Assembly (NCBI GenBank): GCA_016192075.1
Contig: JACPUU010000017.1
Location: 1-64,000 of the forward strand
Source of the DNA: Bacteroidota bacterium
GTDB taxonomy: Bacteria > Bacteroidota > Bacteroidia > Flavobacteriales_D > Crocinitomicaceae
Direction of reading: 5' to 3'
DNA: 64,000 nt
The position numbers and the translations under genes are program-made. Numbering within the stretch: the stretch's first letter is position 1; each line of letters begins with the position of its first letter. The notes below the pieces were generated by a model. The model saw only the letters and a program-made list of their open reading frames with translations. It did no database searches and was not told the DNA's origin. Below are positions 4,751-42,800 of the stretch, piece after piece.

Positions 4751-4784
4751 AAATGAACAGGAGCAAAACAGAATTCAGAATGGC

Positions 4785-5480
4785 CTATGAAATTTTAACG
4801 GCTGTCTGGTAGAAATTATTGACACAGCCAATTACTTCATACTTGATATAAAAAGAACTGGTCCATTCCGTGAAGGCTTTGTATTCATGCATGGGAACAT
4901 TAAACTCATCAAAGAAGATGATGTCACCTTTTTTCAGGTAAGGGGTCATTAACGTCAAAACGTATAATGTTGCTGAATATAAATCAGCATCCATTTGAAT
5001 TACTTTGCGTTTTTGATTGGGATAAGTTGCCAGAAAGGGAAGAAGGGTTTGCTGAAAAAGGCCCTGGTAGAATTTGCAGCGCGCATCGTCCATTTGTGGG
5101 GGCTCATTGCCATTTGACATATCACCTGCTTTAAAGGGGCCCCAGTTTTCAGGAAGTCCGGTAAACGTATCAAATCCATGAAAGGATGAGTCAGGATTTT
5201 TTATTTCATTGGCCCACCACCTGAAGGAGCGGCCTTTTGAAACGCCAAATTCAAGATAATCAATATCACTTAATTGTTCGGTTTGAATCACATGTCTGAA
5301 CAAATCTTCACGTTTGTTATAATTGAGCCTGGAATTATAAAAGTCGCTGAACGGATTTTTTTTATGTGCATGAACAAAGCGTGAAAGCTGTGCCAGGTGA
5401 CCTAAAAAAAGAATGATCCTGGATGGAACAAGGTAGTGTAATCTTAAAACAAAAAAGAGGCCTTTTAATTTTCCGCGCAT
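4785..5480 (-). CDS. Class I SAM-dependent methyltransferase, TylF/macrocin-like
   Basis: A 231-aa protein with the motif I region YLEFGVSKGRS, then FHGFDTFTGLPENWG, a metal/SAM-loop motif VIQMDADLYSAT, and FFDEFNVP. Together these resemble the TylF/macrocin O-methyltransferase group of Rossmann methyltransferases, whose DxD-like DADL and FDEF residues bind a divalent metal. The likely role is O-methylation of a sugar or small metabolite; the acceptor cannot be read from sequence. A hydrophobic, basic N-terminus (VLRLHYLVPSRIILFLGHL) may associate with the membrane. It lies 75 bases downstream of the rluB-like gene on the same strand but is probably expressed separately, as no overlap or coupling is visible. 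Confidence 0.8.
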   Translation of the reverse strand: MRGKLKGLFFVLRLHYLVPSRIILFLGHLAQLSRFVHAHKKNPFSDFYNSRLNYNKREDLFRHVIQTEQLSDIDYLEFGVSKGRSFRWWANEIKNPDSSFHGFDTFTGLPENWGPFKAGDMSNGNEPPQMDDARCKFYQGLFQQTLLPFLATYPNQKRKVIQMDADLYSATLYVLTLMTPYLKKGDIIFFDEFNVPMHEYKAFTEWTSSFYIKYEVIGCVNNFYQTAVKIS

Positions 5481-25600: not shown

Positions 25601-25767
25601 TTTATGGATTTCAATTGTTGCTCTAAAATTTGCTCCAATACAACGCTTGACCCAATATTGTTGCGTTGTACAATGGTTTCCTCTGGCGAAATATATTTCC
25701 AGCCTAACTTACGAAGTAAACTTAGGGCAGGTATTTGGGAGTCTGATTGTTCCTGATAGTTTGTCAT
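22642..25767 (-). CDS. hsdR: Type I restriction enzyme, R subunit (HsdR)
   Basis: The motor and nuclease subunit of a type I restriction-modification enzyme, which translocates and cuts DNA lacking the host methylation. In the 1041-aa product the PD-(D/E)xK nuclease lies near the N-terminus (RRPDLV at 145-150, then LENK at 161-164). The helicase domain follows with Walker A HTQGSGKS (about 315-322), DRVDLDKQI, DESH (416-419), GFTGTPL and the late motif QAIARVNRLHEGK. The length is normal. The ATG overlaps the HNH gene stop as ATGA. hsdR is therefore separated from hsdS by the ATPase/HNH pair, an unusual order for type I operons. Confidence 0.95.
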   Translation of the reverse strand: MTNYQEQSDSQIPALSLLRKLGWKYISPEETIVQRNNIGSSVVLEQILEQQLKSINSFEYKGNTHKFSDGNIHSAIHVLKNVPDEGLLRTSEKIYDLLTLGKSFEETIQGDKKSFTLKFIDWDNISNNTFHVTDEFVVEGINETRRPDLVLFVNGIPFAVLENKRRDKNSSIDESISQHIRNQGKESGIPKLFHFAQLLLAIQPNEVKYGTIDAKPKFWSYWKEEGDIEKAVAAILKAKNKEVASEDRLPTEQDRMLYCLCRPERLMELVFKFTLYDARIKKTARYQQYFTIKNTIDRIKELSADGQRKGGVIWHTQGSGKSLTMVMLAKCIALEKSITNPRVIIVTDRVDLDKQIFNTFHNCGKTPERAKSGGHLMDLVNDRGIEIITTVIDKFESALNRKEFKNESENIFVLVDESHRSQYGSTHAKMKRVLPKACYIGFTGTPLLKNDKSTAKKFGGFILPTYSIKKAVEDQAVVPLLYEGRAAKLTVNQSQLDKGFDRLAEPLTEYQTANLKRKGSSIQEIYKSQQVIEEIVYDISKHYCDNWKGSGFKAMLAVPLRATAIEYHKLFEQQTNPKLKVNTAVIISSPDSREDHEEVDEDPSSEVQKFWNKITKNEPIEQYEERIIEQFKSDSEDVEILIVVSKLLTGFDAPRCSILYIARHLQDHGLLQAIARVNRLHEGKDFGHIIDYVGILGKLDKALTEYQELEGYDLNDLEGTITNTSDEVKKLAQRHNELWDVFKEVSNKKDIEAMERHLAPKDIRDLFNEKLILFAKNLQLALSSDEFYKIYSEERGKTFIGDLKFFQNLKNSISLRYAEALNYKEYEVRVKKLLDTYVGAEGIEVITSPLNIFDEEVFKKEVERVTGSVASKADAIAHRMKQVISVKMDEDPVFFKKFSQLIDDAIKSFREKRMSEAQYLASIMNIRNNFAHGRMEGTPTVLDGKPEARAFYGVIKEKIAGSDSADVKDKLAQVGVGIDAILTKLMIRDWKRNEDVQKHMQNEIEDYILDSQREVGVEINFDQLDAILSDIIRIAKNVYED

Positions 25768-26714
25768 GGTAACTGAAATAATGGAGGTTCTTTTTTTATT
25801 TTATCTGCCAATGCTGTTTTAAATGCATCAAACAAAACAGATCTAAGATTTTTATTTTCCTTTTTTGTGAGAACTTTTTGTGCAACAATCGAATCGAAAT
25901 TCAGATAAATATACTTCCACAATAGCGAAAATTCTTTTGGATTATCATCCTTAAGAACTTCTAATACTCGACTAATTGCCTCCTTGCTGTCGGACCTATT
26001 TTTGTACTTTCCCCATGAAATAAAAACAGCCAAACTTATTTTTTCGCCAAGATTTTCAATCACCTCATTTCGCTTATCATTAAGATCAGGTCGATCTATT
26101 CCGCAGTCTGCAATTGTTTGCTTAGCTCGCTTGCTGTCTTTTACCGGACTAGGAAAACCATTTTTATCGAATTCAATGTATTTTAATGGATTGAAGTCTT
26201 TTTCTTCGGGATTTAATAAAAGTGGTTTTTCCAAGAGGTTTAGTTCCGAAAATAATTTGACCTGATCGGTAATTCCAGAAATATTCTTGAATGAAGAGTC
26301 ATCGACATGTATCAACTCAACGGGAAATTTAGATCCCTTATGCCCCTCATTACAATCTCCACATACATAAATAAGATTTGTCCATTCATATCCTAACCAA
26401 TAATAACCAGGATGGTCGGTTCCTAAAACGGAGTCCTTTGGACGGTAATGATCAACTGAGAAATTGTCGCCATATCTTTCACAAAACGCACAATTGTATT
26501 TATACAATGATCTTAATTGATAGAAGGGACTTGCAGGACTGTTCTTATTGCCGCGATACCAGTATACACTATGCTTTTTTTTAGCAAGTTTTGGTTTAGT
26601 TTTAACCTTCTTTCTGTTAGTAATTATTGTTTCGAGATGATTCTCACAATTTTTATTACCTAGATGTACTGGGGCTGTTCCTTTTTCAATTTTTTTCATT
26701 GAATTTAATTTCAT
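25764..26714 (-). CDS. HNH nuclease, PtuB/TIGR02646-like
   Basis: A 316-aa HNH endonuclease. The zinc finger and active site read NCAFCER (C75, C78), DHYRPK (88-93) and VCGDCNEGHKG (C118, C121, His125). The DHYRPK form and the downstream KKIEKGxxP-like N-terminus resemble the family that pairs with an ATPase in Septu (PtuAB) and retron-Septu systems. The first ATG gives a 29-base overlap with the ATPase gene; an internal ATG at 26699 (MKKIEKGTAP) fits the family N-terminus better. Its stop overlaps the hsdR start as ATGA. I infer a DNA- or RNA-cutting effector controlled by the ATPase. No reverse transcriptase gene is present, so it is not a retron. Confidence 0.82.
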   Translation of the reverse strand: MKLNSMKKIEKGTAPVHLGNKNCENHLETIITNRKKVKTKPKLAKKKHSVYWYRGNKNSPASPFYQLRSLYKYNCAFCERYGDNFSVDHYRPKDSVLGTDHPGYYWLGYEWTNLIYVCGDCNEGHKGSKFPVELIHVDDSSFKNISGITDQVKLFSELNLLEKPLLLNPEEKDFNPLKYIEFDKNGFPSPVKDSKRAKQTIADCGIDRPDLNDKRNEVIENLGEKISLAVFISWGKYKNRSDSKEAISRVLEVLKDDNPKEFSLLWKYIYLNFDSIVAQKVLTKKENKNLRSVLFDAFKTALADKIKKEPPLFQLP

Positions 26715-28578
26715 TGATTTTTCTTTTCAGTACTTTATTGAATACCTCTTCTTCGTAATCAACTTTGGAAGTAAATCCAACGTTCACATCAAAAGAAGCG
26801 GGGAGAATATCCCTGAAACCGAATAACGGTGAGGTTAAAACTGAATTTGGTGTGAGTCGCTTAATCTCAACTTCAAATGGTTCTATCTTCGAAGTAAAAT
26901 ATTCGTCTTTGAAGGCTCTTAGAAAAAGTGTCCGGGAAGGATCCTTTATTCCAAGTAGCGGAATTGGGCTGTGACAGGTTGCAATAAATTGAATATTTGG
27001 AAACATTTCTGAAAGAATGTTGGTGATTTGCCATTGCCATTTTGGATGTATATGCGCATCCAACTCATCAATCAAAACAATGCCTGTAAAATTAGCTGGA
27101 TCGGGAAATTCATCAGTACTATGATATTGAATAAAACGGATAATCAGATCTCCAACCATTGTCAGGATACTCTTATTTCCAGTAGACAATTTTTTAAATT
27201 CCAGTTCAGTCCGATTTTTGTCTCCCAATACATAAAGCACTTTGTCTTCAAGCGTTTTGTGTATAACCTTAAAGTCAACTAATTCTGGGAGTAAACCCTG
27301 ATTTAGTTTTTCCTCCTCTGATCCAAGAAATATTTCTTTAATATTTTTTATTAACTCATCATAAAAGCCTTCTTGATTTGCAGCGATGTGCATTGTTGAA
27401 AGTTTCTTCTCACCTGTTTTTCGTTCTAAAGAATCTATTCTCGCCTTAAGCGACCAATCTATCAGGGCGGATTCAAGACTTAGGATTCTGGGAGTCGATT
27501 CCGGCTCAAACAAACTTAACGTCTTATTTTTATCGTTACTATTTAAATTGAAGTTTTCATTTTCAAAGCGGTTCGAACTATAACAAATAAACTCTTTAAT
27601 TTCTTGAAAGGATTTGCTCAATTTATGCTTGTCAATTTTATTCCTTTTGATCACTCCATTATCAAAGAACTCGGTTCTGATTAATGCACCTGATTTATTA
27701 ATAATGCGGTCTTCATCATAATTACCTTTCATTGAAAGTGCAATTGCTTCTAAAAATGATGTCTTTCCCGATCCGTTCTCACCTGTTACAAAAATCCATT
27801 GCTTGTTCTTCGGAATATTTATTTTTGATATATCCTTCAGATTTTTGTATTCCTTGATTTCAATTGAATTTATTCTTATAGGAATTTCATTAAGATTTTG
27901 TTTTGCTTGTTGTAATATTTCAATATGGCGGCTTTCTGTTGTTCCTGATAATACATATTCATCTGCGCTCTTTTTACTTGAACTTGTTTGCAGTAGCCGA
28001 ATAAATTCAGCTCTGTGCTTTTCGATTTTTTTATACAGTTTTTCAAAATCAGTTTTATCAATAAAACCAAATCGGTTTGTTTCATCTGAAGGAACATAAT
28101 ATTTCAACCACTTACGAAGAAGGACGTCAATTGTCTTTTTTTCAATACGGATCAGTTTATCCAAAACGGATTCAATGTTCTGTTCGCTCCATTTGTACTT
28201 AAGTTCCTTATAATAATTTTTATCTTCAAATGTGGCTTTAGGATTATCTGGTTGACTACTCTTGTAACTTTTATCTTTTCCTACAAAATATTTCTCGAAA
28301 AAATCAGTTTTTTCTTTTGAGTCTTTTGCTGAAAGCAATATATAGACCGCATGATCTTCAGCAGTAAAAAAAAAGGAAATATTGGGCGTTTTATTCTTCC
28401 AATCGCTACCATCCCAAAACGATAGAGCCAGGTAATTTTCGGTTCCATGAAACCAAAAACCTTCACTTAAACGGTTGTACCTGTTGGATCTTCGCAACCT
28501 GAAGGTGAATTCAGTATCTTTCCATTTTTTTGATGTTAGATACGTAAAAATTCTATCGTGCAATTTTTGAGTTATCAT
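26686..28578 (-). CDS. ABC-type AAA ATPase, PtuA-like, with extra N-terminal region
   Basis: A 630-aa cytoplasmic ATPase. The ABC/SMC-like core occupies about residues 235-560: Walker A GENGSGKTS (266-274), signature KLSTGNKS (463-470), Walker B IVLIDELDAHIHP (500-512) and the H-loop ATCHSP. These match the overload/RecF-like ATPases that partner HNH nucleases in Septu. Residues 1-230, beginning with a Trp/Phe-rich segment (EFTFRLRRSNR, GFWFHGTENY), lack an assignable domain and make this longer than a typical PtuA. The next gene, encoding the HNH nuclease, overlaps it. It starts 5 bases after hsdS ends. Likely role: sensor/regulator of the HNH nuclease. Confidence 0.85.
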   Translation of the reverse strand: MITQKLHDRIFTYLTSKKWKDTEFTFRLRRSNRYNRLSEGFWFHGTENYLALSFWDGSDWKNKTPNISFFFTAEDHAVYILLSAKDSKEKTDFFEKYFVGKDKSYKSSQPDNPKATFEDKNYYKELKYKWSEQNIESVLDKLIRIEKKTIDVLLRKWLKYYVPSDETNRFGFIDKTDFEKLYKKIEKHRAEFIRLLQTSSSKKSADEYVLSGTTESRHIEILQQAKQNLNEIPIRINSIEIKEYKNLKDISKINIPKNKQWIFVTGENGSGKTSFLEAIALSMKGNYDEDRIINKSGALIRTEFFDNGVIKRNKIDKHKLSKSFQEIKEFICYSSNRFENENFNLNSNDKNKTLSLFEPESTPRILSLESALIDWSLKARIDSLERKTGEKKLSTMHIAANQEGFYDELIKNIKEIFLGSEEEKLNQGLLPELVDFKVIHKTLEDKVLYVLGDKNRTELEFKKLSTGNKSILTMVGDLIIRFIQYHSTDEFPDPANFTGIVLIDELDAHIHPKWQWQITNILSEMFPNIQFIATCHSPIPLLGIKDPSRTLFLRAFKDEYFTSKIEPFEVEIKRLTPNSVLTSPLFGFRDILPASFDVNVGFTSKVDYEEEVFNKVLKRKINEIKFNEKN

Positions 28579-30907: not shown

Positions 30908-32428
30908 TTAAAATCCTAATTCATTTAAATACTGATCCATTTCTTTGCGCACTACGGCAAGCTGTTTTTCAAGCCCTACAATCTCTTTTCGAACGGCTTT
31001 GATATCAACGGCCTCTTCGGCTTCAAATGTGTCCACATAACGCGGAATATTCAGATTAAAATCGTTTTTTTCGATTTCCTCCATAGTGGCGCGGTGCGCG
31101 TATTTTTCAATGTCCTTGAATTTTTTAAATGCATCCACAATTTTTTTGATGTGTGGATCGCGCAATTTGTTTTGTCGTTTACCGCTTTCGTATTCTTTGC
31201 TGGCATCAATGAATAGTACATCCTTCGTCTTTTTCCCTTTATTAAAAATAAGAATGGCAGCCGGAATACTGGTTCCAAAAAAGAGATTTGCAGGTAAACC
31301 AATTACAGCCTCCAGTAAGTTTTCACGAATTAATTTTTCGCGTATGGCTTGCTCGGTACTTCCCCTGAAGAGCACTCCATTCGGAACAATAACACCAACC
31401 TTACCCGTTTTTTCAGAAGCAGTTTCAATCATGTGAAGAATAAATGCATAATCACCTTTTGTTTTTGGAGGGATACCGCGCAGAAATCGTTTGTATGGAT
31501 CACTTGCTGCATGTTCATGTCCCCACTTGTCCAATGAAAACGGTGGATTTGCAGCAACAATGTCAAAACGCATAAGGTGATCCCCTTCAATAAGTCGCGG
31601 GCTGTTGATGGTATCGTCCCATTCAATATGTGCAGCATCCATTTCATGCAAGAACATGTTCATTTTTGCCAATGCCCAGGTTCCGCCATTGCTCTCTTGT
31701 CCGTATAAGGAACAGTCGCGGATATGTGTATTGGGTTTGAACGGCACTTGTTCTGCAACTGTAATGAGCAAAGAACCCGAACCACATGCCGGGTCACAAA
31801 TACGATCTCCAGCTTTAGGGGCAAGAAGTTTGGCCAATAGAACCGACACTTCGTGTGGCGTGTAAAACTCACCTCCTTTTTTACCTGCATCAGAAGCAAA
31901 TTTTTCAATCAGATACATGTAAGCACTTCCGATAATATCTTCGCTACCGATGACGGATGGACGAAAATTCAACTCCGGTTTATTGAAATCATCAATCAGA
32001 TTTTTTAACCTGCGGTTACGATCCTTTGTATTCCCGAGTTTTTCGGAATTGAAATCGATATCACGAAAAACACCGGCCAGTTTGGACTTGTTTTCGTCTT
32101 CAATCTTTTCCATGATTTTATTGATGCGACCACCGATATCGGAATCGTTTTTATGCTCAACTATTGTTTCAAAGGTGCAATCATCAGACAGCACAAATCG
32201 CTCACGACTCATTTTTCTTTTAATCAACGCTTCATCCTTCCCATGGATTTTTTTGTATTGATCATACTTATCGTTCCACACATCACTCAGGTATTTCAGG
32301 AACAAAAAATTCAACAGGTAATTTTTGTAGTCAGAGGAATCTAGGGCTCCCCGAAAGCTATCGCAAGCACCCCATAATGTTGCGTTGATTTGTTCCTGTG
32401 ATGGTTTGGTATGTTTAGTGTCTGCCAT
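30908..32428 (-). CDS. hsdM: Type I restriction enzyme, methyltransferase subunit (HsdM)
   Basis: The N6-adenine methyltransferase subunit. The 506-aa product has the HsdM N-terminal helical domain (LWGACDSFRGALDSSDYKNYLL), the family motif GGEFYTPHEV, SAM-binding motif I CDPACGSGSLLI (211-222) and the catalytic motif IV NPPF (294-297, ANPPFSLDKWG). The length is normal and all key residues are present, so methylation should be functional. Upstream, the 67-aa gene is only 3 bases away; downstream, rhuM begins 9 bases later. It probably modifies the island's own recognition site with both HsdS and, possibly, the half-specificity protein. Confidence 0.96.
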   Translation of the reverse strand: MADTKHTKPSQEQINATLWGACDSFRGALDSSDYKNYLLNFLFLKYLSDVWNDKYDQYKKIHGKDEALIKRKMSRERFVLSDDCTFETIVEHKNDSDIGGRINKIMEKIEDENKSKLAGVFRDIDFNSEKLGNTKDRNRRLKNLIDDFNKPELNFRPSVIGSEDIIGSAYMYLIEKFASDAGKKGGEFYTPHEVSVLLAKLLAPKAGDRICDPACGSGSLLITVAEQVPFKPNTHIRDCSLYGQESNGGTWALAKMNMFLHEMDAAHIEWDDTINSPRLIEGDHLMRFDIVAANPPFSLDKWGHEHAASDPYKRFLRGIPPKTKGDYAFILHMIETASEKTGKVGVIVPNGVLFRGSTEQAIREKLIRENLLEAVIGLPANLFFGTSIPAAILIFNKGKKTKDVLFIDASKEYESGKRQNKLRDPHIKKIVDAFKKFKDIEKYAHRATMEEIEKNDFNLNIPRYVDTFEAEEAVDIKAVRKEIVGLEKQLAVVRKEMDQYLNELGF

Positions 32429-32431
32429 AAA

Positions 32432-32635
32432 TTATTTTTTAACTAATGATTGGTTCCAGTTGCTTCTCCAATTGCCTACTTCAGTTAGTATTGCTGCTAA
32501 AAGTTGAGCTGAATTATCTGCACATCGTGCATTATAGTAGTTAATGAACATTTCCATATTTTCCTTCGCATTTAATCCAGTATCCTTTTTGAACTGTTCC
32601 ATGTATGCGTTAAAGTTGTTTTGTATTTTATACAT
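32432..32635 (-). CDS. Small hypothetical protein (67 aa) between half-S and hsdM
   Basis: A 67-aa, probably helical protein (YKIQNNFNAYMEQFKKD, then ENMEMFINYYNARCADN, ending NWNQSLVKK) with no signal peptide. I do not recognise it. Spacing of 5 bases from the upstream gene and 3 bases from hsdM supports real translation. Small accessory proteins in restriction operons can be controllers, anti-restriction or chaperone-like factors; the sequence does not distinguish these. Confidence 0.6.
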   Translation of the reverse strand: MYKIQNNFNAYMEQFKKDTGLNAKENMEMFINYYNARCADNSAQLLAAILTEVGNWRSNWNQSLVKK

Positions 32636-32640
32636 AAGTT

Positions 32641-33582
32641 TTAGTTTGCTTTTTTATAAATCGTATTACCAGAATTATCAATGAGAGTTATACTTTCAAT
32701 TTCATCATGTTGAACTGCATTTAGAATTTCATTTTCTTTTTGTTGCTGTGAAAGTTCCACACCATTCCAATCCCTGAGTCTCGACATTTCGATAAATAGC
32801 CATTTGTCCGCAACAGGAAATTGCACACTTGATCCATCCGGTTTTTCAATTTTCTTAGGAGCAGTTAACAGGTTGTTGAATGTGCATACTACCTCAGATA
32901 ATTTTTTGTCATGGCCTTTCACTGATACCGGATGTTTAAACTTCACCATAGCTCGGTAATAATTACTTTGCATCATTATATCATACCAGTCATTCAAATC
33001 ATTGGGATTAAAGACGAGCTGATGTGTGTTAACCTGATCAATCATTGCGCTATAAAATTTATTTTTCCTTTCAATCATTTGCATTGTTATTTGTTTTTCC
33101 CTTTCCCATAGTCCCATAATTGCTATTACTCTTTGCTGGTGCATTACATCCGGAACATTTAGTTCCAGGTTATCTACCTCAGACTTATTCAGATTAAGAA
33201 CGGCTGTACCTTCCTTTTTCTTTTCAAGTTGCTGGCTACCACTACCATGATTTAAAAACAGCGCAAGCCATGGTGCAAGAACACTTTTTGTAGTAACGCG
33301 AATAATTAAGAAAACAGAAACGGCTGCTGCTGTGACATCCTCATTAAATATGTAGGCAAATGTTTTTCCACCTTTTGCCATCAAAAGGATGTCGCCCTTT
33401 TGTAAAACCTGATGTGATGGAAGAAGAGCCGTTTTTATTTTGTGACACGTTGAAAAATCAATTCCCTTTTCAGGATGAACGTTCATATATTGAATTAATA
33501 AACACTCACCAGATGGATCATTTTCCACACGCCCCCTTACCGTTAGTCCCGTAAAAATATCAGCACAATCTTTCAAAAACAT
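32641..33582 (-). CDS. Half-size HsdS-like specificity protein with extra C-terminal region
   Basis: A 313-aa protein. Residues 1-190 look like one target-recognition domain plus one coiled coil of HsdS: LLIQYMNVHPEKG, QVLQKGDILLMAKG, LNLNKSEVDNLELNVPD, then QQRVIAIMGLWEREKQI followed by a helix. A normal HsdS has two such halves. Residues about 195-313 are different (DWYDIMMQSNYYRAMVKFKHP, then a DKWLFIEMSRLRDWNG segment and a terminal ITLIDNSGNTIYKKAN) and are not part of any HsdS I recognise. It is the first gene of the operon. It may dimerise to act as an alternative specificity subunit or act as a regulator; this is inference. Confidence 0.7.
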   Translation of the reverse strand: MFLKDCADIFTGLTVRGRVENDPSGECLLIQYMNVHPEKGIDFSTCHKIKTALLPSHQVLQKGDILLMAKGGKTFAYIFNEDVTAAAVSVFLIIRVTTKSVLAPWLALFLNHGSGSQQLEKKKEGTAVLNLNKSEVDNLELNVPDVMHQQRVIAIMGLWEREKQITMQMIERKNKFYSAMIDQVNTHQLVFNPNDLNDWYDIMMQSNYYRAMVKFKHPVSVKGHDKKLSEVVCTFNNLLTAPKKIEKPDGSSVQFPVADKWLFIEMSRLRDWNGVELSQQQKENEILNAVQHDEIESITLIDNSGNTIYKKAN

Positions 33583-33919
33583 AATCAGAGTTTGTTTACA
33601 GAGGTTTAGACGTGAAGGTAGATGAAAAGTTGCGTGATTTCATGCAGAATTTTTTTACAGACCGCCATAAATAAATTTATATATCTGTATTACAATACTT
33701 TAACGTTTTAAAATAATTCAAATATTTTTTAGAGGCCAAAATTTGGTTGAGATGATTAGAGATTTGGAAAAAGACTTACTTTACAGTTTAATTAATTGTA
33801 TTTCAATTATTTGATTCGAAATCCGTGATTATCTTGCGGTTTCGCACTAGTTTTCCTTCATTAAAAGTAGGCAGGCCATTTTTTCACCAAAAAACGACCA
33901 ACCGTTTCATCAAACATTC

Positions 33920-33942
33920 GGCAATATACAGGTGCTATTGCC
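33920..33942. promoter_or_regulatory. Inverted repeat, possible operator
   Basis: GGCAATA and TATTGCC form a perfect 7-bp inverted repeat separated by 9 bases, giving a centre spacing suited to a dimeric DNA-binding protein. It sits 25 bases left of the phased array. Confidence 0.4.
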
Positions 33943-33967
33943 AAATATTTGCGTTCAGCCCATAACC

Positions 33968-34049
33968 ATCACATCCCAATCACATCAAATTGCATTAGCA
34001 TCGCATCAAATCACATTGCAATCACATACCTATCGCATCGCTATCACAT
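33968..34049. repeat. Eight heptamers (ATCRCAT type) phased at 10-11 bp
   Basis: Copies start at 33968, 33979, 33989, 34000, 34010, 34021, 34032 and 34043. Five are ATCACAT, two ATCGCAT and one ATTGCAT. Steps are 11, 10, 11, 10, 11, 11 and 11 bases, mean 10.7, close to one DNA turn, so all copies face the same side of the helix. This resembles an iteron or cooperative-binding array. Confidence 0.75.
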
Positions 34050-34344
34050 TCATATAAACCGACATTTCGCGACAATAATCTGCAAGAACAGGCAATAAAA
34101 ATCAGCCCAAAGCAAGAACTGGAAAGCTCATTTTGACCCCGCGGTAATTTCGGTCATTACCAAGGAAAAAATGCAAAATAGCCCCGTTTCCGGCCTTATT
34201 GGGACGTGTATGTAGTATTCCTTTTACACGTGCAAGTTTATTCGGGTATTTATCTGCTAAAATCGGCCTAAATACGCCAATTTTCATTGGTAAACCGGAG
34301 GCCGTTGCACAGGAATTGATGAACTTAAAGAAAAGCGTTTTACT

Positions 34345-36001
<1,657 letters not shown>

Positions 36002-36008
36002 TCTTTTT

Positions 36009-36100
36009 ACCCAACGTAGCTTTGGCGAAGTTGGGTGTTTTTCCTAACCATACCTTGGCGAATTGGGTATTTTAACCCAAATTTGCTTCGGTGAAGTCGG
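36009..36100. repeat. Cluster of REP-like palindromic repeats upstream of tRNA-Ala
   Basis: Three related units built on CTTTGGCGAAGTTGGGT, CTTGGCGAATTGGGT and GCTTCGGTGAAGTCGGT occur within about 90 bases. The first forms a hairpin ACCCAAC...GTTGGGT (36009-36036), and the middle region adds TTGGGT...ACCCAA. They lie between the tRNA and its likely promoter, so they would be in the tRNA precursor transcript. Confidence 0.6.
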
Positions 36101-36137
36101 TTTCTGATGGTCGTCTGGCTTAGACGATTTCAGGGTG

Positions 36138-36145
36138 CAAAGTTA
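36138..36145 (-). promoter_or_regulatory. Probable -7 element for tRNA-Ala
   Basis: Read leftward, TAACTTTG matches TAnnTTTG. It lies 136 bases before the tRNA 5' end with no gene in between, which would place the palindromic repeats in a long 5' leader. Confidence 0.4.
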
Positions 36146-36217
36146 TACTTTTTGAGAGAAACTGGTTTGTCCCAATGCTATTTTTTGTTCAAAAAAGGTA
36201 AAAGGCTCTTTAGGCAC

Positions 36218-36586
36218 TCACTTCCCCTTCTTCTTTTTAACCGGCTTTGGATTCGCCAGTTTGGAAAGATCCTGCTGCATTTTAGCAACATTTTTAGCCA
36301 GTTCGTTGACCATTTTGGTTAACACCTCTACATCTTCTTTGGCAGCAAAACCATATTGCGGGGCTTGTTCAGATGCCAGGTTCAGTTTGGTTTGGTAACA
36401 GGCAAAAAAATCATACTTCAGTACGGTGCTGATTTTTTGAAGCTGGTCGGTGGCAATGGATTCTTTTTCAAAAATTTTGTAAACACCGGCACGCGTCAGG
36501 TTAATGCGTCGCGCCAGTTCAACAGCCGTCATGGGTGAACCATCCAGAACCTCTTTAATCTTTTTGCCTATGTGAACCTTTGACAT
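36218..36586 (-). CDS. XRE-type helix-turn-helix regulator with coiled-coil tail
   Basis: A 122-aa DNA-binding protein. Residues 1-65 form an HTH fold (IGKKIKEVLDGSPMTAVELARRINLTRAGVYKIFEKESIATDQLQKI). Residues 80-110 are a heptad-rich helix (VEVLTKMVNELAKNVAKMQQDL), probably for oligomerisation, and the C-terminus is a Lys-rich tail (PKPVKKKKGK). It is transcribed leftward toward the tRNA-Ala and stands alone. Its position just outside the island leaves open whether it regulates the island, the adjacent SPOR gene, or an unrelated target. Confidence 0.82.
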   Translation of the reverse strand: MSKVHIGKKIKEVLDGSPMTAVELARRINLTRAGVYKIFEKESIATDQLQKISTVLKYDFFACYQTKLNLASEQAPQYGFAAKEDVEVLTKMVNELAKNVAKMQQDLSKLANPKPVKKKKGK

Positions 36587-36783
36587 AATTGCAAAATTCA
36601 GGCTTTTTAAGTCCCGGCGCCTGAACTCGTGAATACCATTGGTTTACAAAATGTATCGTATATGGATACATATCTGGTTCTTTCTATCCGTTATGCACAA
36701 ACCTGTTTTTCTGCTTTATCGCATCTGAATGGTTTTACCCGAAACATCACGCTCCCTTTTACCGTATGATAGGGTAAAATGCC

Positions 36784-36791
36784 TATCTTTG
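36784..36791 (+). promoter_or_regulatory. -7 promoter element of the SPOR gene
   Basis: TATCTTTG matches TAnnTTTG exactly, 11 bases before the ATG at 36803. This makes the upstream ATG at 36779, which precedes the element, an unlikely start and predicts a leader of only a few bases. Confidence 0.6.
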
Positions 36792-36802
36792 TAGCCCCAC
36801 CT

Positions 36803-37996
36803 ATGCAACTGGAACACCACATAGCCAACCTGCTGAAACATCACAACTGCGTGATTGTTCCGGAATTTGGCGGATTCATAGCCAATTATGAATCAGCATG
36901 GATTAACCGTTCACGGGCTGTCATTTATCCGCCGTACAAACAAATTCTGTTTAACGGCAGCCTGACACAGAATGATGGTTTACTGGCCAATGAACTGGTA
37001 TTGAAAAGCGCTGTTTCATACACAGCGGCATTAGACCGCATTGCTGCCCAGGTAAAAGAGTGGCGCAAACAGCTCGATGAAGGACAGCGTATTGAACTGG
37101 ACGAAATTGGTTTCTTGTTTTTACAAAATAACCAGGTTATTTTTGAGCAGAACCGCGAGGTGAATTTACTGCTGCAGGCATACGGCCTGAAACAGGTGGC
37201 GTTCATTAATTTTGCTGCAAAATCAAATATGCAGGCTGTTAAAGCAGAACGTATCCCAACCGTGACAACGGTGACGGAAAAAACAGCTGAAAAAGAAATT
37301 GTTCAGACACCTGAAGTGGTTGTTGCCGATACCCCTGAAAAGGAGAAAGAAACACCGGTTATTGCGCTGAATACGGCTGAAGAAATTGAAACGCTTACTG
37401 CTGAATCAGGTGACCCGAAAGTGATTCCGATCTACCGTGAAAAAAAGCCGCGTAATTACAAATACGCACTGGCCGCTGCAGCCGTTCTTCCAATTATGTT
37501 TTACGCATACTGGATTCCGATGAAAACAGATTTTCTGAACACCGGTAAAATTCAGATGAGTGACTTTAACCCATTCCGTCAGCAGGCAACAGATGTGTAT
37601 GAGAAACGGCAACCGGTTTTCAACATGGACCTTACCAATGACTGGGAATCGTGGGAACAACTGACGGCTGCATTGCCCGATCATGTGGCCGTTTATAACC
37701 TGGAGCTGACCGATGAAATTTACATTCCTGTTCGTTTGAAAGAAGATACCGAAAACACCGGCGCATTTAATCAGGCCGGTTCGTTTCACCTGATTGCAGG
37801 TTGTTTTTCAGTTGAATCCAATGCCAATAACTTTGTAAAACAGCTGACTGAAAAAGGATACGCAGCCGGAATTGTGGATCACAAAAACGGACTTTACCGG
37901 GTCAGTGCCGGTTCGTTTGCTGCTGAAACCGAGGCTGAATCAGCCCTGGATAAATTCAAAAACGAAGGTTTTTCTGGCTGGATTTTGAAACACTGA
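36803..37996 (+). CDS. HU-CCDC81 / SPOR-domain cell-division or envelope protein
   Basis: From ATG 36803 (MQLEHHIANLLKHHNCVIVPEFGG) the product is 397 aa. Residues 1-130 match the tandem HU-CCDC81 domain of Bacteroidota (VPEFGGFIANYES, NDGLLANELVL, DEIGFLFLQNNQVIFE), a putative nucleic-acid or protein-binding fold on the cytoplasmic side. A Glu/Thr-rich linker follows. One membrane helix (YALAAAAVLPIMFYAYWIP) precedes a periplasmic segment and a C-terminal SPOR domain (GSFHLIAGCFSVESNANNFVKQL, LYRVSAGSF) that binds denuded peptidoglycan at division sites. Together these suggest a linker between the nucleoid or cytoplasm and septal wall. Confidence 0.85.
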   Translation: MQLEHHIANLLKHHNCVIVPEFGGFIANYESAWINRSRAVIYPPYKQILFNGSLTQNDGLLANELVLKSAVSYTAALDRIAAQVKEWRKQLDEGQRIELDEIGFLFLQNNQVIFEQNREVNLLLQAYGLKQVAFINFAAKSNMQAVKAERIPTVTTVTEKTAEKEIVQTPEVVVADTPEKEKETPVIALNTAEEIETLTAESGDPKVIPIYREKKPRNYKYALAAAAVLPIMFYAYWIPMKTDFLNTGKIQMSDFNPFRQQATDVYEKRQPVFNMDLTNDWESWEQLTAALPDHVAVYNLELTDEIYIPVRLKEDTENTGAFNQAGSFHLIAGCFSVESNANNFVKQLTEKGYAAGIVDHKNGLYRVSAGSFAAETEAESALDKFKNEGFSGWILKH

Positions 37997-39388: not shown

Positions 39389-39870
39389 GGAACACAGATG
39401 ACGCTGATTGCTTAAGATAAAAGATGATTCGATTCAGGTAAATCAAATGTACTTTCTCATCCGAACAATATTTTGCGGGAACAGATCCTAAAAATCATAT
39501 TGGATCTGTGTTATCAACGCTCTATCAAATCAATTCTTCATAAGCATAGGAACACAGATAACGCTGATTGCTTAAGATAAAAGATGATTCGATTCAGGTA
39601 AATCAGATGCACGTTCTCATCCGAACAATATTTTGCGGGAACAGATCCTAAAAAAAATCATATTAGATCTGTGTTATCAGCGTTCTATCAAATCAATTCT
39701 TCACGAGCATAGGAACACAGATGACGCTGATTGCTTAAGATAAAAGATGATTCGATTCAGATAAATCAGAAGCACGTTCTCATCCGAACAGGATTTTGCG
39801 GGAACAGATCCTAAAAATTATATTGGATCTGTGTTATCAGCGTTCTATCAAATCAATTCTTTACAAGCTT
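39389..39870. repeat. Three tandem copies of a ~160-bp repeat
   Basis: Units begin with GGAACACAGATRACGCTGAT at 39389, 39549 and 39712, with steps of 160 and 163 bases. They are nearly identical, including a CATCCGAACA segment and TTTTGCGGGAACAGATCC. Each ends with GATCTGTGTTATCARCG and ATCAATTCTT. Start and end segments are related as partial inverted repeats (AACACAGAT/ATCTGTGTT). The third copy runs into the stop codon of the GH18 gene at 39853. The stretch has no open frame of interest. Confidence 0.85.
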
Positions 39871-42800
39871 AGATTGTATTTGACTGTCTCCCTGAATCAA
39901 CGTAAGCGTATAAATTCCACGGCTGAGTGATTGTGAAAGATCCAGAACAAGGTTAGAAGAAACCGGAACAATTTGTTTGCTTATTACAAGTCTCCCCGAT
40001 TGATCGTATACTAAAATCGTACACGGCGCATCAGGAATAACTCCCTTAATAAAAATCTGATCGATAAACGGATTTGGGTAAATCTGAACAGCGTTTTTTT
40101 CTTCAGATAGAGCAGCCACATCAATCACGTCCACCAACTGATAAATTGTATCATTCGGGCACAAATCATTTTCTGCAACCAGCATCACCGAATACGTTCC
40201 GGATGTGCCGTAATCATTCCACGGATTAGAATCGACAGACGTATTTCCATCACCAAAATCCCAGAAATAAGACGATGCGTTGGTTGAATTATTGGTAAAA
40301 AAGATTGCTGCATTGGGCCAGATAGCCGGTGAATTGGAACTGAAATCAGCCAGGGGTGCCTGTGCAACATTGATGGTAATAAACTGAGTGGTGGTATTGG
40401 TATCAGTGCCCTCAATGGCATGTAGTGTTACTTCAAAAGAACCGGAACTGGTATATGAAACAACCGGGTTAATAGCCGTACTTGTTGCCGGTGTACCGTT
40501 TTCAAATTCCCAGAAATACGAACTGGCATTGGTAGATGTATTGGTAAACTGAACGGCTTCTCCATTGCACACCACCACACTGGCAGGTGCTGAAAAACCA
40601 GCCGTTGGCGGAATTGTACCCGATTGTAAAGTCTGCCCGTCTGATGAAAGAACTACAGTTTCCAGGCCCGCACCATCAATAGCTTTCACTGAAACAAAAT
40701 AAACCTGACCCAGTGAAAGAGACAAACCAGTTTCTGTAAATGCAGTGATGAGTCCGTTGTCTGTCCACGCTACCACATCGCTGACTCCGGCCGTAGTTCC
40801 AACAGCATACCAATAGGCTACAACAGCTGAATGCGGATCAGTTGTAGCTGCCCAGTTGGCAGAAATTTGTGAGGCGGTTGTAAAAAAATCATCGTCTCCG
40901 GCGTTGCCGTCGTTTACAAATGGAATGGCAACAGGTGCTGTCCAGTCGATATTCACCAGGTGCTGATCAACTACTGAAAAATTAGCCGCAGCATCCAGGT
41001 TGATTGAACTGATTCTTGCTGCCGGTGTCAGCGGATCGGGATTCTGATACCGCACTTCATCAGCGGCACTTCCAATTGTAATGGTTTCGGTTGCGGTGCG
41101 GCTTTTGTAAACGGTCAGATTATCGTAAATTCCGAGTGCATTTCCGGTGCGGGGTGAAATGGTAGTTCCACCACTCAGCGGAGAAGGATCAGTCCACTCA
41201 GATACCAGCACATTGTCCAGAAATGCTTTGATGGTTCCCGTAGCCGGATCAACATAAATTTTAAAATCATAGGTCACATTCGGGTCAACAATCACATCAT
41301 CATCGGTCATTAAAACAATACTGTTTGCTACTGATTTATAAATCTGGCATTTGTTCTGATCAGCCCTCCAGTAAACCATGTATGAATCACCCCGCTGATC
41401 AAGCGTTGCATCACTGCAGAAAAAATGAAGTCCGGCCCGGCGGTTGGTTCCTGCACCGTTAATCTGGCCCTGCCAGTGATAGAGATATGCATGTTGATCG
41501 TCTTGCAAAAGTGCTGCATGAATGTTTGAATTGGCAACCGTTTCATCGGTGTGTTGAAGTGCTCCTGAATTCAAAATCCAGGTACCGGTTTGAGAGGTCC
41601 AATCCGGGTGAATAACGGTACCTGAAAATTCATCGGTAAAAAATCCAAAATCGGTATTGGAACGCCATTCTGTTCCCTCAAAATCAGCTACAGTGTAGAA
41701 TTTTTCAGCAATGCTGATATTGTCTGTATCGGTAAAATCAGCTGTGAAATCTGTTGTTTGCCAGGTACCGGTTGTGCTGACAGCCGTGACCGGAGGTGTT
41801 GCATCTGTCACGCAGGCGTAGGTAGCATTAAAGCCGGATGACACCGTAGAAATATCTGACGTAAACCGAAATGTAACAACACCGGAACTGGTGCTGAAAT
41901 TACCCGGAGAATTGGTGCCGGTATACGTTCCGATCAGGGGTGATGCCGTAGAGGGCCCGTCGTAGATGTATAAATAATCGTAATTCAGTTCCACGTCAAA
42001 TGATGAAAACGAAACATCAATGCTGGTTGCCGCAGGCGGAGCAATGGTCCAGGTATAATCTTCGTTGTTGTAATAATCGCGGGTGGGTCCGCCAAAATCA
42101 TGAATCATGCCGCTGCAGGAATCGCTGTAACATTCGGTCATAAAATCACTGATGGCGGTCCACATTTCAGTATAACCATCATCGTACCCAAGGGCCCATA
42201 TTCCAATACCGGCAATGCCGGCTGTATTGACATGCTGCAGTCTTTTCCGGAATGCATCTTCCAGCGGAATGTAACACTGCTTATTTCCGCTGCTGTTAAA
42301 GGTAAAAATGTCGGTGTAGCTGTCGGTATCCCAGGTGTGATTGCCGGTTGAATAATTGCCGGATGTATTGGTCATCACGTATTCATAAGTTCGCGCAACC
42401 CCGGTTCCGGTAGTGGAAGACGGAATGGTTAGACTGCTGGTTGGCCACTCGTAACCGTAATAGGGCAAACCCATCACCAGTTTGCTTTTAGGACAGCCTG
42501 CATCTACATAATCGGTAATGGTTTTTGAAAGTGTTACGTTGTAGGTAGATCCGAAATGATACAGCGGATCATTGGGCCCCGTTGTGCTGCTGCCCTGGTA
42601 ATAGTAAGCATAACCCATTACAATGTAGTTGTCTACTTCAGGCTCCATGATTGAAAAATTGAAGACATTGCTCCAGTCGACGGCATACAAAACGGTACTG
42701 ACTTCTGAACCCGGAATGGCAGTGTGCATCTGGTTACTCAGGTCAACCATAAAATTGGCAAAGTTGGTGGTCTGGCTGGATGGCAAACCCTCAAAATCAA

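Follow-up and report, generated by a model that had tools for sequence, protein, structure and literature searches.

The window analysed here, a 64,000-nucleotide stretch of contig JACPUU010000017.1 from a member of the Crocinitomicaceae (Bacteroidota), contains a defence-carrying island that is bounded by a tRNA gene and includes, between its integrase gene and its defence operon, an array of eight near-identical heptamers (Table 1). The integrase has the features of tRNA-targeting serine integrases, i.e. Resolvase and Recombinase domains and a gene whose 3′ end lies at the 3′ end of a tRNA gene. Its reading frame is broken in the window, whereas it is intact in relatives, and the small ORF conserved upstream of the integrase in relatives is absent from the window island. 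The tRNA gene was the sole match in an Rfam scan of positions 32000–37000, in which no RNA element was found at the array. The far attachment end was not located, since no 12-base stretch of the tRNA region recurs to its left within the window. A second copy of the integrase is encoded on contig 5 of the same genome, with a weaker phased array ~1.5 kb upstream. Elsewhere in the window, positions 25764–28578 contain an ATPase gene with a sub-threshold match to PtuA and, on the same strand, a gene for a 316-aa protein, both adjoining type I restriction genes; the region is possibly a Septu-like unit, in which the 316-aa protein, judged by eye, may be an HNH nuclease. A repeat of ~160 bp is present in three tandem copies (92% matching) at positions 39389–39872.

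Table 1. Positions of the heptamer array and the surrounding features in the window
Feature	Position	Strand	Basis or remark
First gene of the divergent defence operon, HsdS-like	32641..33582	−	Outside the unit conserved with the array
ATYRCAT heptamer array, eight units	33968..34049	+	Chain score, shuffles, sister comparison
Leader homologous to the two sister leaders, ending where the sisters' small ORF starts	34050..34344	+	Alignment
Possible degenerate continuation of the array (GACAT, GACAA, TGCAA, GGCAA at 10-bp steps)	34061..34095	+	Weak, by eye
TAATTTCG, at the place of the sisters' TAnnTTTG box	34145..34152	+	Leader comparison
Large serine integrase, Resolvase and Recombinase domains	34345..35505	+	Frame breaks in an A-run near 35475
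ORF with the C-terminal part of the integrase in another frame, ending inside the tRNA gene	35378..35995	+	
tRNA-Ala (ggc), island boundary and presumed attachment site	35925..36001	−	Same arrangement in most relatives

The eight units start at 33968, 33979, 33989, 34000, 34010, 34021, 34032, and 34043 and read, in this order, ATCACAT, ATCACAT, ATTGCAT, ATCGCAT, ATCACAT, ATCACAT, ATCGCAT, and ATCACAT; seven of them match ATCRCAT exactly, the exception being the third. The steps between them are 11, 10, 11, 10, 11, 11, and 11 bp (mean, 10.71). The first-pass annotation had described eight ATCRCAT-type heptamers at steps of 10 or 11 bases, a description confirmed by these coordinates as well as by the chain score and shuffled controls given below. 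It had also placed all of the sites on one face of the DNA, which holds approximately, since the rotational drift across the whole array is only ~1.5 bp, or roughly 50 degrees, at 10.5 bp per turn. Phasing was quantified by scoring chains of near-identical heptamers spaced at 10 or 11 bp, the score and its thresholds having been chosen in this analysis. The array scored 25.5, whereas the 300-bp tiles of the window have a 99th percentile of 8.9; no other tile, and no shuffle among 2,080 controls, approached the score of the array. The longest chain of seven-base words was 9 at the array and did not exceed 5 in any of 300 dinucleotide shuffles or in any other window tile. ATCRCAT itself is not enriched in the window (26 matches observed and 21 expected), indicating that what is exceptional is the clustering and phasing of the motif, and a pattern scan of the 4.65-Mb genome found such an array only once. 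Since only 10/11-bp steps were allowed, the mean of 10.55 across all arrays scored in this study does not count as independent evidence. A bend had also been considered in the first pass; an intrinsic one was rejected, as the curvature predicted from wedge values is 10 degrees at the array compared with a shuffle mean of 24.5. Protein-induced bending is possible.

When 395 genomes of the class were scanned with the motif alone (ATYRCATN{3,4}ATYRCATN{3,4}ATYRCAT), the genome of the window and five others matched. Three of these five matches (L112, L113, and L115) look like perfect tandem repeats or short runs. The other two matches lie in sister elements, G173 (L124) and G141 (L125), where arrays of eight to nine units immediately precede a small ORF of 75 aa and an integrase gene; the integrase is 69 and 71% identical to the window integrase, respectively, and its gene is located at a tRNA-Leu gene. 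The cargo of both is unrelated to that of the window island, comprising metal efflux genes in G173 and HNH-like, helicase-like, and methyltransferase-like genes in G141, and in an all-against-all comparison the integrase was the only protein common to the window island and the sisters. The cargo gene beside the array is co-directional with the integrase in both sisters, and there is thus no divergent defence promoter there. The location between a recombinase and a divergent defence operon, as originally described, therefore applies to the window island but not to the two sisters. It had been proposed to look for the array in related islands, where we find it kept with the integrase, whereas the defence operon is not kept and the cargo is entirely different. 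Of the binders that had been suggested, RhuM and the 67-aa protein lack counterparts in both array-bearing sister islands, and the XRE protein is encoded on the far side of the tRNA boundary, at 36218. Judged by these sequence comparisons, the array is part of the integration module and not of the defence operon.

The steps of the G173 array (11, 10, 11, 10, 11, 11, and 11 bp) are exactly those of the window array, and those of the G141 array are 11, 11, 10, 10, 11, 11, 11, and 11 bp. Over the three elements, identity is 83% in the heptamers, a figure raised in part by the units being copies of one motif, and 39% in spacers of equal length; positions 2, 6, and 7 of ATYRCAT (T, A, and T) are invariant in 24 units. 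In these three elements, the contrast between heptamers and spacers, together with the nearly fixed steps, argues for selection on the sites and on their rotational phase. A leader of about 250 bp downstream of the array is also conserved among them, and a TAnnTTTG box of the Bacteroidota −7 type occurs once on the plus strand in each sister leader. This box, with TAATTTCG as its equivalent in the window, is likely the −7 element of the promoter of the integrase operon. The G141 element (L125, L169, and L170; contig 1, ~138 to 176 kb) also carries genes for an amidase, an endolysin-like protein, an ATPase, a D12 methylase, and several unknown proteins; it may represent a virus-like element, perhaps a tailless one, that relies on the same integrase.

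Phased chains were scored in 104 non-redundant integrase upstream regions. Scores of at least 11 were reached in 25% of the regions, compared with 3.7% of shuffles, and scores of at least 13 in 13.5 and 0.5%, respectively. Steps of 10/11 bp yielded 24 loci, whereas the control step pairs from 13/14 to 16/17 yielded only 1 to 5, and high scores were concentrated within 1.5 kb upstream of the integrase. The unit sequence varies by locus, e.g. AACGSAA-type in L002, TTTTCAA in L023/L024, and AAGTGGG in L062. The AACGSAA-type arrays of L002 contain 18 and 7 copies; the 18-unit array (4752–4988) is located inside a Zn-finger-like gene, and a second array of the same motif follows just after. In the L013–L027 clade, one array (ATTTGC/ATTTAGA) is kept in most members while others come and go, and no convincing phased array was found in the close relatives L003 and L004. 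A 373-kb host sample was used as background, and its one strong match (L162) looks like a low-complexity coding repeat. Viral contigs contained 22 matches to the motif pattern, mostly simple repeats such as (ATCAC)n, and none of these was accompanied by a winged helix-turn-helix (wHTH) or integrase gene; an 11-bp array in one viral contig (L244) was set aside as unrelated. The motif alone is not specific. No report of such arrays in Bacteroidota serine-integrase islands was found in the open-access papers searched.

The 3′ ends of the relatives' integrase genes mostly abut the 3′ end of an opposite-strand tRNA gene (Ala, Pro, Arg, Phe, Met, Glu, Val, or Leu) or tmRNA gene, which places the recombination site at the tRNA, ~1.9 kb from the array in the window. 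Throughout this large serine integrase family (window 34345–36001; L002–L081), genes end at or inside the 3′ ends of many tRNA genes and of the tmRNA gene. Sites in tRNA genes are typical of tyrosine integrases, and the target range of these serine integrases therefore deserves its own study. Directly upstream of the integrase, an ORF of 60–90 aa is conserved in most relatives (e.g. L013, 5768–5998; L124, 9399–9626), often overlapping the integrase start. No Pfam, NCBIfam, or fold match was found for this small ORF, and its product is predicted to form a two-helix hairpin, a model that does not suggest an obvious DNA binder. It was rejected in that role, having no match to a DNA-binding family or fold, and is a candidate directionality factor.

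Apart from the integration module, the two sisters share a 70-aa wHTH protein (89% identical), an XRE-ImmA fusion (84%), and fragments of one ATPase. In the fusion, the XRE regulator and the ImmA peptidase form a single protein of 349 aa, and the wHTH protein is encoded next to it in both elements. Among 28 wHTH neighbourhoods chosen blind to arrays, 11 (39%) contain a phased array with a score of at least 12; the frequency was 0.9% in shuffles and 0–4% at control periods, and 3 of 112 host pieces reached this score. When 20 larger neighbourhoods were examined, a wHTH gene was located no more than 1 kb away from 13 of their 14 arrays (P 3e-9). The typical layout consists of XRE-ImmA, wHTH, one to three arrays of differing sequence, and a second wHTH; in L203, L205, L207, L212, L218, and others, the paired small wHTH genes are ~1–2 kb apart, with several differing arrays between them. 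In L221, the reverse complement of the motif (ATGYGAT) adjoins a wHTH gene and precedes another integrase operon. No array was found inside the wHTH modules of G173 and G141 themselves. Many members of this family match Pfam DUF4248 weakly. The matches of the candidate wHTH protein to HTH_17 and MerR_1 are weak (below cut-off), its predicted structure is a helix-turn-helix with a wing (pLDDT 80), and its top Foldseek matches, RacA (E 0.19) and BldC (E 0.34), are not significant. No member of the family was found in the window's own genome, and the search of viral contigs found no relative. The family is also absent from the array-bearing genomes of L002, L013, L020, L023, L028, L040, L058, and L074; other binders must serve the arrays of these eight genomes, and the proposal that one wHTH family binds all arrays was rejected as a universal rule.

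BldC and the recombination directionality factors (RDFs) Apl, Xis, and Cox bind head to tail and cooperatively to direct repeats one turn apart (PMC5859096, PMC7498355, PMC11963761). The array resembles the sites of Apl (phage 186) and of Xis/Cox-type RDFs, which consist of five to seven direct repeats with 10–11 bp spacing at att and a promoter switch, and whose small cooperative proteins serve as both excisionase and regulator (PMC7498355). However, the elements encoding these proteins possess tyrosine integrases and sites that flank att, whereas the present case involves a serine integrase and an array ~1.9 kb from the tRNA site; the motif and the protein family also differ. BldC of Streptomyces, a MerR-like wHTH protein of 68 aa and thus similar in size to the ~70-aa candidate, forms head-to-tail oligomers with protections one helical turn apart (PMC5859096). 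It is, however, a chromosomal developmental regulator, to which the candidate has no significant sequence or fold score. The features of RDF/BldC-type operators found here are direct repeats spaced by about one turn (10–11 bp) and, in the three elements compared, a selected motif and phase with free spacers. In ICEBs1-type elements, which are controlled by ImmR/ImmA-Xis, an XRE regulator and an ImmA/IrrE peptidase are encoded beside a small excisionase-like wHTH gene. The sisters have the same combination of XRE/ImmA and a small wHTH, but with the XRE and peptidase parts fused, a serine integrase, and phased-array operators.

Because related islands with different cargo keep the array at identical or nearly identical spacing, it is most likely a docking strip for a small, chain-forming mobility regulator. 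The explanation that we favour, and consider fairly probable, is that the array is a multi-site operator of the integration module for a small head-to-tail regulator of the wHTH type, present in the window probably as a relic or else as a site served in trans. The protomers, one on each ATYRCAT heptamer, would bind cooperatively in a head-to-tail row on one side of the helix and would switch the putative promoter just downstream (~34145), from which the small ORF and the serine integrase would be transcribed. The best candidate for the regulator would be the 70–90 aa BldC/excisionase-like wHTH protein encoded beside XRE-ImmA in both sisters. A cooperative operator had already been proposed in the first pass, and it is supported by the conserved heptamers, the free spacers, the preserved helical steps, and the position upstream of the putative promoter. 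The array, its retention with the integrase next to different cargo, its conserved phasing, the recurrence of such arrays, and their clustering near wHTH genes are observed; we infer the binding, its cooperativity, and the direction of regulation, and likewise the identity of the binder and the relic status. Points against this reading are the absence of the wHTH family from the window's genome and from the eight array-bearing genomes named above, the sisters' wHTH modules without an array inside them, the close relatives L003 and L004 without a convincing array, and the non-significant Foldseek ranking of BldC. With the small ORF missing, the integrase broken, and no wHTH gene in the genome, the simplest view is that the window array is a relic, which is probably the case unless a trans-acting factor serves it.

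That the same operator of the integration module is bound by another protein, whether the integrase, the product of the small ORF, a host factor, or another regulator encoded by the element, is a real possibility though not a probable one. The integrase and, except in the window, the small ORF are the sole genes common to all array-bearing islands, and several array-bearing genomes are without the wHTH family. Moreover, MerR-like or Zn-finger genes adjoin arrays in L074, L065, and L002, the 18-unit array of the last being inside such a gene. Against the small ORF protein stands its predicted hairpin fold without a DNA-binding match, and in the L013–L027 clade near-identical integrases and small ORFs are paired with changing arrays. 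A host factor is disfavoured by the single occurrence of the motif as an array in the host genome, unlike the sites of a global host regulator.

An iteron-like, recombination, or transfer site, whether an accessory att, a replication or transfer origin, or a parC-like partition site, is very unlikely. Phased direct repeats at 10–11 bp are typical of parC. They are also typical of excisionase sites near att (PMC7498355), but the attachment site here is at the tRNA, and a non-exhaustive search of the window and the two sisters recognised no gene for replication, partition, or transfer next to the array. The recombination site envisaged in the first pass is likewise not supported, as this integrase family recombines at tRNA/tmRNA 3′ ends, ~1.9 kb away. 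We consider it highly improbable that the divergent defence operon, which starts at 33582, is controlled by the array; the operon and the integrase do share the intergenic region that holds the array, 386 bp upstream of the operon's first gene, but the sisters keep array and integrase with unrelated, co-directional cargo and have no divergent promoter. Chance, minisatellite slippage, or intrinsically curved DNA with no dedicated binder, for which the perfect tandem repeats of L112, L113, and L115 and the (ATCAC)n runs of viral contigs might be cited, is scarcely credible and already largely refuted, as the mixed 10/11 steps are kept between genomes while spacers diverge, the shuffle and tile controls were negative, and predicted curvature is not above that of shuffles.

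Alongside the favoured reading of an operator for a small wHTH-type regulator, it is conceivable, though unlikely, that the cargo islands are satellites of virus-like elements with the same integrase and that the array lets the helper's wHTH protein control excision in trans; if so, the rapid turnover of array sequences would track the helper's regulator. Phased direct-repeat operators have so far been known from a few tyrosine-integrase phages and from BldC. Here, phased arrays recur upstream of the integrase in a Bacteroidota family of tRNA-targeting serine-integrase islands and beside XRE-ImmA/wHTH modules, and their sequences diverge quickly while the helical spacing stays. The results also point to a possible function for a protein family with many weak matches to Pfam DUF4248. 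The motif, the protein, and the sister elements together provide a cheap and concrete handle on the mobility switching of defence-carrying islands.
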